Source of the DNA: Sulfuricurvum sp.
Lineage (GTDB): Bacteria > Campylobacterota > Campylobacteria > Campylobacterales > Sulfurimonadaceae
Direction of reading: 5' to 3'
NCBI GenBank assembly: GCA_024637295.1
Contig: JAGXFL010000001.1
Location: 1-64,000, forward strand
Length of the DNA stretch: 64,000 bases
Position numbers and translations under genes: made by a program. The notes under the pieces were generated by a model. The model was not told where the DNA came from and did no database searches. It saw only the letters and a program-made list of their open reading frames with translations. The first letter of the stretch is position 1. Every line of letters starts with the position of its first letter. Below, in pieces: positions 30,337 to 45,819 of this stretch.

Positions 30337-30780
30337 CTACTTGTCTACGATCATGGCTTTGAGTTCGGCTTCGGAAACGAGTACGTCATCTACGTACGCT
30401 TTTCCTTCTAATACCCAGATTGAACCTTTGTGTTTAACCACTTTCATACGGTACTCAAGACGATCTCCAGGACGAACAGGAGCACGAAATTTTGCGCCGT
30501 CAATACTCATAAAATAAACGACTTTGTTGGCAGCTTCTTCTTCGGTCATGTCCATGCTTTGAAATGCCAATATTCCACCAGCTTGTGCCATTCCTTCTAA
30601 AATCATAACGCCCGGATAAATAGGGTGACCCGGGAAATGTCCTTCAAATATTTGCTCACCGATGGTGACGTTTTTAAATCCTATAAGAGATTCGTTAGGG
30701 GTGATTTGGGTTACTCGGTCTACAAGTAAAAACGGAAATCGGTGAGGTAAAATTTTTTGTATTTGAACAACATCCATCAT
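30337..30780 (-). CDS. fabZ: 3-hydroxyacyl-ACP dehydratase FabZ
   Basis: About 147 aa. FabZ dehydrates 3-hydroxyacyl-ACP in fatty acid elongation. It has [14 protein letters not shown] near the start and the active site [18 protein letters not shown], with catalytic His and Glu. The frame opens with a GTG at 30792, but the ATG at 30780 has a better-placed AAGG and fits the family start. It is the first gene of the fabZ-lpxA-clpX-mreB-mreC operon. A TATAAT box lies about 60 bases upstream. Confidence 0.95.
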
Positions 30781-30841
30781 ATGCAATAACACCTTGGTTA
30801 AATTAAGTCGTTAATTTTAGCGTAAAAACGGTTAATTGATA

Positions 30842-30847
30842 ATTATA
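30842..30847 (-). promoter_or_regulatory. -10 box upstream of fabZ
   Basis: TATAAT on the minus strand, in a gap between fabZ and the brnA end. It is the likely promoter of the whole fabZ-to-carB operon. A second TATAAT-like sequence on the plus strand near 30859 has no gene downstream. Confidence 0.5.
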
Positions 30848-30919
30848 AGTGCTCTAGCATATAATTTACCAGTAGAGTTCTAATACGCTTTTTGGGTTTT
30901 AGTGTGATGTTGAGGATTG

Positions 30920-31162
30920 TTATCCTGCTTTTTTTTGATGGTTTGCTGCATATACATTCAATAAATTGCGTATCATTTTTTGGTACTGTGTATGGTGCTT
31001 TTCTGCCTCTTTTTTAAAGAATTCGACGCTTTCTTTGGTCAATGAAATCGTAATTTTGACCGTGTCATCTTTAAAAATCAAATCTTTCGGCGAAGGTAAA
31101 AAATCGGTTACGATTTTCAAATCTCCGATGGGTTCATCTGTATATTTAATGGTTTTCTTCAT
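30920..31162 (-). CDS. brnA: BrnA-like antitoxin
   Basis: 80 aa. The N-terminal part is KKTIKYTDEPIGDLKIVTDFLPSP, and DTVKITISLTKESVEFFKKEAEKHHTQYQKMIRNLLNVYA is a ribbon-helix-helix DNA-binding domain. Size and order after a BrnT gene fit the BrnA antitoxin, which neutralises the toxin and represses the operon. A longer frame from 31249 lies inside the brnT gene and is not used. It overlaps brnT by 17 bases. Confidence 0.8.
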   Translation of the reverse strand: MKKTIKYTDEPIGDLKIVTDFLPSPKDLIFKDDTVKITISLTKESVEFFKKEAEKHHTQYQKMIRNLLNVYAANHQKKAG

Positions 31163-31424
31163 AAGTCTTTTTTCCTTTTCTCCAATATCCTGCACCAAAA
31201 ATCCGAATGACGTTATCTCTGTAGGTAAATCGGACAGTGAGTATTTCACCCTCTACTTTACCGATACAGAAATAGCGTTTCTCGTCTTGGCTATGTTCCA
31301 AATCCTCTGCGATTATTCTCTTCTCATCTGTAAAAGCGTATTGAGCATGCTCAAACGAGACATGATGCTTTTCCTGATTTTGAGAATTTTTATTTTCATC
31401 CCAATCGAATTTGGTTTTTTTCAT
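31146..31424 (-). CDS. brnT: BrnT-like ribonuclease toxin
   Basis: 92 aa. FDWDENKNSQNQEKHHVSFE at residues 5-24 is the BrnT start pattern; a DEKRYFCIGKVEGEILTVRF strand pair and VIRIFGAGYWRKGKKTYEE end follow. BrnT cleaves RNA and arrests growth unless bound by BrnA. Together with the overlapping brnA it forms a type II toxin-antitoxin pair. A TACACT box six bases before the ATG suggests a leaderless message. It lies at the edge of an accessory island. Confidence 0.85.
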   Translation of the reverse strand: MKKTKFDWDENKNSQNQEKHHVSFEHAQYAFTDEKRIIAEDLEHSQDEKRYFCIGKVEGEILTVRFTYRDNVIRIFGAGYWRKGKKTYEENH

Positions 31425-31436: not shown

Positions 31437-31594
31437 TCATGTAATTTATAAATTAGCAATACTTTTATATGGGTAATATGGTGTGTAAAAGTGAAGATTG
31501 AATATTTTACTGCTTCTTTCGATAAAATGAAGCATCAGACTGATTTGACTAGAATATAGGATATGAATCAAGTAGGTAAAAATAAGGAATTTGA

Positions 31595-33181
31595 ATGACT
31601 CAAATTAGCATACCCCTTTTTGTAAAAAATATGGGACACAGAATTGTTTCCTATATTCTTAACCTTTCGGAAGAGGATGCCGAGAATGTCCTTAACAATA
31701 ATATTGAGATATCTGATGAAAGAACACAAATACTTCAGCAATTCATAGATATTTGCAAGCATTTTAGAATGCAAGGAATTGATCAACCTGATGTTGATTT
31801 TTTAGTATTTCATAGCCTTCCGGGAATATTTTTAGAAGGACAACATATCTTTAATATTTGGCATGAGCAAATGGGTGGGAAAGTTGAGATTCAGTCAAGT
31901 GATGATCCGATAGTTGAAATCATTAATAAAATTGTATCAAAACTATATCCTTTGTTTCTTATCAAAATGATTGGAACTCCTAATTTTTTTAATAAGATGC
32001 ACAACCATATTTTATCTAGCATTTATTCTCTTCCTGAGTACAGGCTGTTGTGTTCAGCGTTAAAGAAAGACCCTGTTTTTTTATCAATTTTCGATAAAGT
32101 TGGTGATAATGAGATAAATACTACGGGATCATATATGGCTTCCTCCGGAAATGGTGGCACTATGCAACTAGCAACTTTTCCTTCAACTTTAGTTGTAAAT
32201 TCATTTGAATTGATGAGAATGAGAGGTGAATTTAGTTTGGAATCATTCGCCAATGCTACTGAATATACCGTAAGCACTATCAGACAATGCATAAAAGGTG
32301 ATGTGGTAAATGTCCCAGTATTTTTAGGATTCAATAATATATCCGTAGATAAAGTTGGTGAGATTAAAACTGAGTGGGGAATTTTGCGTCCAATAACCGA
32401 AGGTATTTCGGAGCTAACACCAAATAATACATCGACTACAAATATTGATGGAAAAACTTATAATCTTGGATTTGTATTAGAATCCACATATCCTTACAAA
32501 GTAAATTTTGGAGAAGCTATTAAAAAAGCGAAATTCCCAAAAGAGTTAAATGAGGCAACGGTTCAGTTAAATAAAATTACTGAAAATCTTTCTTTGTCAT
32601 TTTCTTTGGCTTGTGAAAGAGTACCTGCGGTTGGAATGTCGTCTGCATGGACAGTTAAATTTAATCCGCTAAGTCATGGCACCAGTATCTCTTGGAACTC
32701 AGTGCAAAATTCTCCTGCTCGATTTCACATTCTAGAAAATGGAAAAGAACTAGATGAATTGCTGAAATGGAGTGATTTACTAAAAAATGTTGAAGATAGT
32801 AAAATTAGAATTGCTTTGCGCCGAATATTGTCGGCTATAAACCAAAGAAATGATCCAATTGATGGTTTTATTGACACGGTTATAGCATGGGAAAATTTAT
32901 TTGGTGGGAATGCAGAGCTTAAATTTAGAATTTCAGTTTCAATTGCAAAATTGCTTGGAAATAACGAAGCCGAAAAACTGGAACTTCAAAAAATGGTCAG
33001 TGAATATTATGATACTAGAAGTAAATTAGTGCATGGAGTGAAAGAGATAACGCCTGAACAAGCAATTGAATACAGAGATAACGCTCTCGATATTGCATTG
33101 AAAGCAATACGAAAACTCTATTTAGAAAGAGTCGAATTAATTCAAGATGCTAACAGAGCAAAAGTATTGGCTCTTATATAA
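31595..33181 (+). CDS. Large protein with a C-terminal Apea-like HEPN domain
   Basis: 528 aa. Residues about 405-525 resemble an Apea-like HEPN domain: FIDTVIAWENLFGG, LKFRISVSIAKLLG and YYDTRSKLVHG, with R475-x4-H480, the HEPN RNase motif. Residues 1-400 form no family I recognise; no signal peptide, membrane segment, NTPase or nuclease motif is visible there. HEPN proteins are often RNases in toxin-antitoxin or anti-phage systems, so an RNA-cleaving defence role is an inference. It stands between BrnT/BrnA and MntA/HepT and has low GC. AAGGAATTTGA precedes the ATG. Confidence 0.75.
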   Translation: MTQISIPLFVKNMGHRIVSYILNLSEEDAENVLNNNIEISDERTQILQQFIDICKHFRMQGIDQPDVDFLVFHSLPGIFLEGQHIFNIWHEQMGGKVEIQSSDDPIVEIINKIVSKLYPLFLIKMIGTPNFFNKMHNHILSSIYSLPEYRLLCSALKKDPVFLSIFDKVGDNEINTTGSYMASSGNGGTMQLATFPSTLVVNSFELMRMRGEFSLESFANATEYTVSTIRQCIKGDVVNVPVFLGFNNISVDKVGEIKTEWGILRPITEGISELTPNNTSTTNIDGKTYNLGFVLESTYPYKVNFGEAIKKAKFPKELNEATVQLNKITENLSLSFSLACERVPAVGMSSAWTVKFNPLSHGTSISWNSVQNSPARFHILENGKELDELLKWSDLLKNVEDSKIRIALRRILSAINQRNDPIDGFIDTVIAWENLFGGNAELKFRISVSIAKLLGNNEAEKLELQKMVSEYYDTRSKLVHGVKEITPEQAIEYRDNALDIALKAIRKLYLERVELIQDANRAKVLALI

Positions 33182-33192
33182 ATGATCTGTGA

Positions 33193-33378
33193 TTAAAGAC
33201 AAATAAGCTGCTCTTTGGTATCGTCGTAGGTTTTTGTCTCTAAAATGAGAGTAATTTTAGTGGTGGGTATTTCATCGACAACGATAATGGCTGAGGTATT
33301 AAAGGGTGTTCCCGTAAGTTGTGTGCGTAAAGCGGTTTCAATATCAATGAGAATAGGGGTCAGGTCTTCAATCTTCAC
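33193..33378 (-). pseudogene. Duplicated 3' end of queH
   Basis: The 61-codon frame from a GTG encodes, over its last 49 residues, a near-copy of the QueH C-terminus (IETALRTQLTGTPFNTSAII against IETALRTQLTGTSFNTSAVI). DNA identity to 34311-34465 is high over about 155 bases, starting at the same stop codon. The first 12 codons are unrelated. It has no independent domain and is best read as a remnant of a duplication. See findings. Confidence 0.8.
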
Positions 33379-33401
33379 TTTTATATCGGTGTGTCAAATA
33401 A

Positions 33402-33449
33402 GGGGGCAAGGGGTCATTACTCCCTCAGCCTAATCTTGCCGCTCCATTG
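33402..33449 (-). repeat. Hairpin repeat, copy related to the acs terminator
   Basis: On the minus strand this reads CAATGGAGCGGCAA, then GGCTGAGGGAGTAATGACCC and CTTG, about 85% identical to 45764-45810 after acs. The internal inverted repeat is weaker here and no T tract follows. Confidence 0.7.
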
Positions 33450-33531
33450 TCTGTATGAAGAAGATGTATTCGCAACTAAAATTATATCGATCCGAAATCA
33501 ACAAATCAATGCTTGGAAATTTAAATTTTTA

Positions 33532-33595
33532 TTCCGTTCGCCCTGAGCCTGTCGAAGGGTATGTTCATGGTTCGACAGGCTCACCACGAACGGAA
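33532..33595. repeat. Palindromic repeat element, copy 2
   Basis: A 64-base palindrome with perfect outer arms TTCCGTTCG/CGAACGGAA and perfect inner 13-base arms TGAGCCTGTCGAA/TTCGACAGGCTCA. It is the inverted counterpart of the element at 19259-19318 and lies 6 bases from the hepT stop codon. Confidence 0.85.
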
Positions 33596-33601
33596 GTAAG
33601 G

Positions 33602-33961
33602 CTATTTTTCGCCAAGTATCTTCTTGACCGCTTGCGCTATGACGGGTAATCGTTCTTCAATAACATTTTCAACAATATGCAAATCAATTCCCTCATAATC
33701 GTGTGCGATGAAGTTACGAAGTTCATAGCTTCCTTTTATGTCTTGTTTCTCGAAGTGTGTGAGTATTTCGAGTTCCCCTGCGTGCAAAAGTTTATCAAAC
33801 TGTTCGGCAATGGAGGTGAGGTGCATCATGATTGAGGCTCGTGAGTTTTCTTCATCTTCTAAAGCGTTGATAATAGAACCGCGAGCGCGGATAATATTTT
33901 CGATAAAACCAATTTTTTTGGCTATTACCCGAATACGCTCTAGCGCTCTTTGACTATACAT
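33602..33961 (-). CDS. hepT: HepT-like HEPN ribonuclease toxin
   Basis: 119 aa, all helical, DUF86/HepT family. R82-N-F-I-A-H87-D-Y89 is the RX4HXY motif; this arginine-histidine pair is the RNase site and the tyrosine is the residue AMPylated by the partner MntA. It overlaps mntA by 8 bases, giving the usual antitoxin-toxin operon. A palindromic repeat lies just after its stop codon. Confidence 0.9.
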   Translation of the reverse strand: MYSQRALERIRVIAKKIGFIENIIRARGSIINALEDEENSRASIMMHLTSIAEQFDKLLHAGELEILTHFEKQDIKGSYELRNFIAHDYEGIDLHIVENVIEERLPVIAQAVKKILGEK

Positions 33962-34268
33962 AGATAATATCCCTGATAATAGAGTCTTTCATACTGGAAC
34001 TGCTGTCTAAATCAAATACATCGCTACTACGACGAAATTTTTCAAATAATAGATGTTTAATTTTTGCTATGTCTTCAAAATAGACATAAGCATTACGATG
34101 CTTGAGGTAGTTTTCTTCTTTTTTTATGGCTACATCTATGTCGCTGTATAGGGTTTGATCACCGCGTGCGTAACTTCCAAATAATCCCAATTGAATAATA
34201 CCTGCTTGATGCAATTCGGATTTTAGTTCGTGAAGATACTCTAAAATATTTTCTTGTGTCGGTTTCAT
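33954..34268 (-). CDS. mntA: MntA-like nucleotidyltransferase antitoxin
   Basis: About 104 aa. GLFGSYARGDQTLYSDIDVAI contains GS-x10-D-x-D, the active site of minimal nucleotidyltransferases. MntA inactivates HepT by transferring AMP to its tyrosine. The frame opens at 34295, but the ATG at 34268 (MKPTQENILEYLHEL) follows a TATAAT box by 7 bases, so the message appears leaderless. It overlaps hepT. Both genes sit between two copies of the queH 3' end. Confidence 0.9.
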   Translation of the reverse strand: MKPTQENILEYLHELKSELHQAGIIQLGLFGSYARGDQTLYSDIDVAIKKEENYLKHRNAYVYFEDIAKIKHLLFEKFRRSSDVFDLDSSSSMKDSIIRDIIYV

Positions 34269-34275
34269 ACCAATG

Positions 34276-34281
34276 ATTATA
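34276..34281 (-). promoter_or_regulatory. -10 box of mntA-hepT
   Basis: A perfect TATAAT on the minus strand lies 7 bases before the mntA ATG. The expected transcription start coincides with the start codon. Confidence 0.6.
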
Positions 34282-34310
34282 CAATGAATGATCAATAAAA
34301 GAGATATTTA

Positions 34311-35390
34311 TTAAAGACGAATAAGTTTCTCTCTCGTGTCATCATAGGTTTTTGTCTCTAATGTGAGGGTGATTTTAGTGGTGGGTATTTCATCAACAAC
34401 GATAACGGCTGAGGTATTAAAAGATGTTCCCGTTAGTTGTGTGCGTAAAGCGGTTTCAATCTCAATGGCAGGAGCATTGTACATCAGTTCACGGGTATTT
34501 TTATACGACAATGAGGTGAGGGCATTGAAAGTGTCGATAGTGATAAAACGGACCTCTTCGCGATTGAGGAAAAACTGACCTTCAAGTTCAAAATCGATTT
34601 TTCCCTCGGTTCGTGTACGATTGATCGTTGAATAAATGAGTGGATAGGATGGGATCACTTTTTTCTCAACGGTGATGGATGAACGTAACAATCGATAGTT
34701 TAAAAAGCGTTCTCTGATGATTTTATAGGGGATATTTGCATCTTCGAGATCCATGCGCTTGGCATAAAGTTCAAGCCGTTCTTCAATAGAGGCCGGGAGG
34801 ATTTGTTTGGACAGGGGTGAAAACATCTCATCCATTAAGCGGTGTTGCTGATCGCGCTGCATGGTAAGTCCGAAGATACAGCCGCAATAGTCTTGGCGAT
34901 AGAGCTGTTCTTCTTTGCTGACTCTCGACTGATCGTTTGTTCCACCGTTTTTACGGTAATCAAACGCGATGAACTCGACACCGTGAGAGGCATGAAACGC
35001 ATCACCCGATTTTTTGAGCTGATCTTGGGATTTTTGGGGACTTACAAGGAGGGTGGTCGTCATCGACGTTTCGCCCAATTCCAATGCTTTATGGGCGCTT
35101 ACTTCGAAACGGCGGTCAAAACATACTTCGCAGCGAGCCCCTTTTTCAGGCTCTTTTTCAAGACCTCGAACGGCGTCCATCCATGCTTCAAAATCATAAG
35201 GTCCTTCGATGAGGTCAATACCCAGTCTTTTACAGCTGCGTTGGACGTCCAGATATCGGAGTTGGTATTCGCTGTAAGGGTGGATATTGGGATCATAGAA
35301 GAACCCGGTGAGTTTTTCATCGGGGTATTCCTGCTGCAGCTTTTCCATAAAAAAATGGGAGTCGACACTGCAGCAGATATGGACAAGCAT
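34311..35390 (-). CDS. queH: Epoxyqueuosine reductase QueH with C-terminal extension
   Basis: 359 aa. QueH reduces epoxyqueuosine to queuosine in tRNA, replacing QueG. It begins MLVHICCSVDSHFF with the adjacent cysteines, and has RCEVCFDRRFE and LYRQDYCGCIFGL; these supply the ligands of the iron-sulfur and metal centre. QueH alone spans about residues 1-180. The remaining 180 residues are an extension found in the phylum, ending in a beta-rich segment (VVDEIPTTKITLTLETKTYD). It starts 2 bases after the cyclophilin stop. The last 155 bases are duplicated at 33193. Confidence 0.88.
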   Translation of the reverse strand: MLVHICCSVDSHFFMEKLQQEYPDEKLTGFFYDPNIHPYSEYQLRYLDVQRSCKRLGIDLIEGPYDFEAWMDAVRGLEKEPEKGARCEVCFDRRFEVSAHKALELGETSMTTTLLVSPQKSQDQLKKSGDAFHASHGVEFIAFDYRKNGGTNDQSRVSKEEQLYRQDYCGCIFGLTMQRDQQHRLMDEMFSPLSKQILPASIEERLELYAKRMDLEDANIPYKIIRERFLNYRLLRSSITVEKKVIPSYPLIYSTINRTRTEGKIDFELEGQFFLNREEVRFITIDTFNALTSLSYKNTRELMYNAPAIEIETALRTQLTGTSFNTSAVIVVDEIPTTKITLTLETKTYDDTREKLIRL

Positions 35391-45763: not shown

Positions 45764-45810
45764 CAATGGAGCGGCAACGCTAAGGCTAAGGGAGTAATTA
45801 CCCCTTGGCC
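45764..45810 (+). repeat. Hairpin repeat containing the acs terminator stem
   Basis: CAATGGAGCGGCAA, a short spacer and the hairpin GGCTAAGGGAGTAATTACCC with CTTGGCC. It is about 85% identical to the minus-strand copy at 33402-33449. Confidence 0.7.
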
Positions 45811-45819
45811 TTTTTTTTT
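45784..45819 (+). terminator. Rho-independent terminator of the acetate operon
   Basis: A 9-bp stem (45784-45792 with 45802-45810, one G-T pair) is followed by nine T residues at 45811-45819. It ends transcription 80 bases after acs. Confidence 0.9.

Follow-up and report, generated by a model that had tools for sequence, protein, structure and literature searches.

The spot behind queH in Sulfuricurvum repeatedly gains and loses toxin–antitoxin and other accessory genes. Comparison of the sequences suggests that the queH end is probably a recombination hotspot that operates without an integrase, and that two insertions are probably layered at this point in the window, the 64,000-nucleotide stretch analysed here, which is part of contig C2 of a 2.17-Mb Sulfuricurvum genome.

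Features between queH and fabZ in the window

The window carries a complete queH and a second copy of its 3′ end, followed by further accessory genes and a third, short queH piece before fabZ. From queH to fabZ the features are:

34311–35390, minus strand: queH, complete, 359 aa (Pfam QueH, 9.9e-60); its last 158 nt (34310–34467) are copy c1
33954–34268, minus strand: mntA, predicted nucleotidyltransferase antitoxin (Pfam NTP_transf_2/Polbeta; GSX10DXD), with an alternative TTG start at 34295
33602–33961, minus strand: hepT, predicted HEPN RNase toxin (Pfam HepT-like, 5.7e-10; RX4HXY, as RNFIAHDY)
33532–33595, no strand assigned: CCTGAGCCTGTCGAA, palindromic dispersed repeat (an inverted repeat) directly behind hepT
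33396–33449, no strand assigned: dispersed intergenic repeat, with a second copy at 45764–45818 on the minus strand (84% match)
33356–33382, minus strand: repeat AAAAGTGAAGATTGAAGACCTGACCCC, 6 nt off the 5′ edge of c2; a copy flanks a Y1 transposase (RAYT-like) gene in genome G003
33192–33349, minus strand: c2, duplicated queH 3′ end (last 51 codons plus stop, without the queH body), 140/158 identical to c1
31595–33181, plus strand: p528, orphan gene encoding 528 aa, convergent with c2, the two stops lying about 12 nt apart
31487–31504, plus strand: truncated inverted copy (18 nt) of the AAAAGTGAAGATTGAAGACCTGACCCC repeat, before brnT
31146–31424, minus strand: brnT toxin (Pfam BrnT_toxin, 6.6e-24)
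30920–31249, minus strand: brnA antitoxin, assigned from its position behind brnT; same-locus homologues in G017 and G018
30832–30853, minus strand: third queH 3′ piece, 22 nt including the stop codon, 51 nt before the fabZ ATG, as in empty genomes
30337–30792, minus strand: fabZ, downstream neighbour of queH, with a TANAAT box 38–40 nt before its ATG

A repeat search returned c2 and c1 as a single direct repeat pair of 158 nt with a start-to-start spacing of 1118, and a blastn comparison of the insert with the queH end gave an E value of ~1e-52. The copies share strand, reading frame and terminating stop codon. A sequence-only reading of this DNA had described about 155 nt of queH end in direct repeat with a shared stop codon, one base in eight differing between the copies, and mntA, hepT and a palindromic repeat between them. 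The 158 nt measured, the 18 differences in 158 and the location of all three features there by repeat search and Pfam agree with this description, which did not mention the 22-nt piece at 30832–30853 or the transposase-linked repeat next to c2. The palindrome has about eight further full or partial copies elsewhere in its own genome, and brnA had no Pfam or NCBIfam match.

The two genes directly behind queH are adjacent members of PF01909 (MNT) and PF01934 (HEPN), as in class I HepT/MntA systems. The mntA translation contains GSX10DXD as GS-YARGDQTLYS-DID and HepT contains RX4HXY as R-NFIA-H-D-Y, which are signature motifs of HepT/MntA toxin–antitoxin systems (PMC7641770). The pair resembles these described systems in its mntA-hepT gene order, its Pfam families and both motifs, and differs from them in lying under the NCBIfam equivalog cut-offs (34.6 bits for HepT and 36.4 bits for MntA, against a cut-off of 60 bits that is a naming threshold rather than a biological definition). 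It is predicted to be a class I HepT/MntA toxin–antitoxin pair; a PDB sequence search with HepT returned nothing useful. The location at queH is the sole unusual trait of the pair, and an HEPN RNase toxin with an adenylyltransferase antitoxin would be cargo rather than a mobiliser of DNA.

Empty sites, inserts and queH remnants across the genus

The genus set comprised 41 genomes, of which 39 carry queH and one (G039) was left unclassified. In 13 of the 39, fabZ follows queH after 50–89 nt and the site is empty, while 25, including the window, have accessory genes between the two genes or fabZ on another contig. Outside the genus, fabZ lies within 35–301 nt of queH in 29 of the 32 genomes inspected, which points to adjacency as the ancestral arrangement. 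A queH-body tree requires at least six changes between the empty and carrier states. The commonest insert is a kefB-like transporter, and kefB losses probably account for part of the empty genomes, so not all of these changes are insertions. Other inserts include MNT/HEPN, BrnT, ParE, Phd/YefM and Gp49-like modules and a probable restriction system. The same two core genes thus enclose variable content and also occur as empty sites, as at homologous-recombination hotspots between core genes. The sequence-only reading had suggested looking for relatives whose queH locus lacks the module and for other modules at queH ends; the empty genomes are examples of the first, and the second include an MNT/HEPN pair in G021 and an addiction module in G005.

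Several of these loci are worth describing individually. The G021 pair (L065) is a second, distant MNT/HEPN pair (mntA 31% identical) that lies directly behind queH, in the first 0.7 kb, with BrnT-like and ParE genes beyond it. In L130 (G013:C98), an apparent type I restriction–modification set, judged by eye from the open reading frames, lies directly before fabZ. In L113 (G005:C19) and L134, a gene for a Gp49-like toxin and one for a dnstrm_HI1420-type antidote directly precede a 70-nt queH remnant and fabZ.

Such remnants were found in several carriers. Pieces of the queH 3′ end lie in register 51–52 nt before the fabZ ATG in G005 (70 nt, a native piece with the addiction module on its other side), G029 (48 nt, separating kefB from fabZ) and the window (22 nt); in the first two of these, the contig that carries the fragment is not the one that carries queH. 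Decayed pieces of 45–55 nt precede fabZ in G017, G019 and G020, and in G018 the remnant score before fabZ was not above shuffles. For the remnants listed, none of 300 shuffles scored as well, with a narrow margin for G020 and for the window piece, which is 21/22 identical to the queH ends of empty relatives and whose best shuffle was one point lower. The recurrence of these remnants in several carriers indicates that a queH end is repeatedly left beyond the insertion. The sequence-only reading had proposed an incoming element that restored the queH 3′ end; insertion with a queH end on the far side does recur in relatives, and that part of the proposal is supported.

A TANAAT box lies 38–40 nt before fabZ in all 30 genus loci. 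A promoter built on this box would overlap the stop codon and final codons of queH, and we infer that the fabZ promoter lies at this box and that the queH piece was retained for that reason. The 22-nt piece could also have been conserved simply as promoter, and this counts against the hotspot reading.

Diagnostic sites in the flanking queH genes were examined for recombination tracts. A clear switch was seen in G029, where queH is mostly of the empty-clade type up to roughly column 584 and of the carrier type from roughly column 753, as expected if kefB arrived with a donor queH end. Informative sites are few in the window, where the body of queH largely follows the empty clade through column 903 and its 3′ end clusters with those of carriers G029 and G034. 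Within the copies, c1 is empty-clade-like at columns 1027–1052 and carrier-like at 1062, and c2 is the opposite; this handful of sites, too few to place a breakpoint, hints at a mosaic of c1 and c2.

Proposed origin of the duplicated end and order of events

The mntA-hepT module and the queH fragment can be followed separately. In G018, mntA-hepT lies directly behind the queH stop at 94.4% nucleotide identity over 697 nt, with queH itself about 80% identical and the long queH fragment absent from the junction. Versions at 86% identity are located away from queH in G005, G016 and G032. The claim that mntA-hepT had brought the fragment with it is therefore not supported, because the module occurs without the fragment in G018 and fragments occur without the module in G005 and G029, the two kinds of finding that the sequence-only reading had named as refuting it. 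From these comparisons, module and fragment are not one element. The G018 queH end is 75% identical to c1 and 78% to c2; it is thus no nearer to c1 despite the 94.4% identical module, and an end of the expected donor type is missing there, which also argues against our preferred explanation.

The 18 differences between c1 and c2 are distributed 4/2/12 over the three codon positions (p=0.004 against an even distribution), a third-position share that resembles working queH pairs of similar divergence, and nearly all c1 and c2 alleles recur in relatives. The predominance of third positions indicates that the copies diverged as coding alleles. An origin of the incoming copy in another strain, one of the two possibilities named in the sequence-only reading, is in keeping with this pattern, which is that of alleles from two lineages. 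The phylogenetic check suggested there did not separate the copies: c1 and c2 are sisters in the 3′-end tree (support 0.925), so the tree singles out neither as foreign.

To the observed duplications, their common register, the empty sites and the allele-like divergence we would add the following mechanism. In the ancestral layout, queH would have been followed directly by fabZ, with the fabZ promoter region running into the last queH codons. Foreign DNA, taken up or circular, that carries a relative's queH end with accessory genes would recombine by homology with the resident queH end, and the other join would fall at a repeat or within the 3′ end of the resident gene, giving queH a working end and leaving a queH piece on the far side. 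Since neither the last codons of queH nor the promoter of fabZ can be lost, surviving insertions would be those that hold this overlap in two copies. Two such events are probably overlaid in the window: one would have left the 22-nt piece by fabZ, and the other would have set mntA-hepT behind queH and left c2, which was probably an earlier queH end facing p528.

The transposase-linked repeat AAAAGTGAAGATTGAAGACCTGACCCC follows hepT in the same orientation in both G018 (within about 50 nt) and the window (about 220 nt), and it may have travelled together with the mntA-hepT module. The same repeat underlies the rival explanation that fares best, which we still regard as unlikely: c2 and p528 would have arrived later as joint cargo, between two repeat copies that already separated hepT from brnTA. 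Their source would be a strain in which queH faces p528, and c1 would be the older copy. Consistent with this, the window copies of the AAAAGTGAAGATTGAAGACCTGACCCC repeat (33356–33382 and 31487–31504) are inverted and enclose exactly c2 and the 528-aa gene, the G018 scaffold reads queH–mntA–hepT–repeat–other genes–repeat–brnA, and the repeat flanks the Y1 transposase gene in G003. Of the right-hand window copy, however, just 18 nt remain, the searches turned up no second locus that pairs queH with p528, and brnTA, which other genomes also carry at this site, may have belonged to the resident.

Site-specific insertion is less probable still. Here a site-specific recombinase, since lost or acting in trans, would recognise a core site within the 3′ end of queH, and c1 and c2 would be attL and attR. 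Direct repeats running to the stop codon and a restored gene end, both present in the window, are the classic signature of such islands, which would also account for the many genomes in which insertions share this gene end. Against this, the tyrosine integrase domain PF00589 was absent from the queH–fabZ intervals read in 16 genomes (some intervals end at contig ends, and the search was confined to that domain). The fragments start 158, 70, 48 and 22 nt from the stop codon, so that a constant core length is lacking and a fixed attachment core is unlikely. The queH 3′ end had no match on plasmids or phages, and on viral contigs there was only a distant queH of 38% identity. Tyrosine integrases insert elements at tRNA genes; no tRNA or RNA family was found at the queH locus, and there is thus no tRNA attachment site.

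The weakest alternative is that the queH end was duplicated locally in tandem, after which the module was inserted and the spare copy decayed. The sister relationship of c1 and c2 speaks for it, but a decaying spare copy is expected to vary evenly over codon positions, whereas the third-position excess is like the one seen when working queH genes are compared, and other genomes contain most of the alleles of both copies.

Relation to known systems and remaining features

The queH locus has parallels in three known systems, of which the first two are close to the mechanism proposed here. Integrase-free hotspots (2017, PMC5635113) likewise have accessory genes that turn over strongly between two core genes, lack a visible integrase and bear traces of recombination in one of the core genes alongside; here, in addition, partial 3′ copies of the flanking gene stay on the far side, which points to one crossover inside the gene end rather than a double crossover placed cleanly in the two flanks. 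Homology-facilitated illegitimate recombination (e.g. PMC3240628), with one homologous and one illegitimate end, would yield a restored gene and a truncated duplicate; it is known from laboratory transformation and conjugation, whereas at queH it would be deduced from natural loci. Tyrosine-integrase islands in gene 3′ ends share the restored gene end and the displaced 3′ fragment as a direct repeat, and differ in that the queH locus shows no integrase in the intervals read, has no fixed core length and involves a protein-coding target.

Many gene-gain hotspots lack integrases, and their mechanics are mostly deduced from statistics. The queH locus shows footprints directly, as in-register gene-end copies that vary in length and age and occur in several species. 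A possible reason for the tolerance and marking of such sites also emerges, since an insertion that keeps both gene end and promoter must duplicate their overlap, an idea testable in other gene pairs. More speculatively, and with little confidence, the overlap of queH end and fabZ promoter might serve as an attachment site without an integrase, with RecA excising cassettes bounded by two queH ends and inserting them at any queH end. If so, toxin–antitoxin and other small cassettes would form a pool shared among Sulfuricurvum species.

The orphan gene p528 matched no Pfam, NCBIfam or PADLOC family at curated cut-offs and gave nothing useful in a PDB sequence search. Relatives were absent from the other 199 family genomes searched, from genome contigs and from phages; among plasmids, relatives of 28% identity occurred on Salinivibrio large replicons only, with partial matches in Rhodococcus. 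Its product has an RX4H string (RSKLVH) of a type known from HEPN RNases, without a domain match. The repeat AAAAGTGAAGATTGAATACCTGACCCC (33356–33382 and 31487–31504 in the window; L190–L193, L195 and L203 elsewhere) was detected in 18 of the 41 genus genomes, against 0 for a reversed control, and in G018, G022 and G038 it forms inverted pairs around roughly 1–3 kb with other genes.
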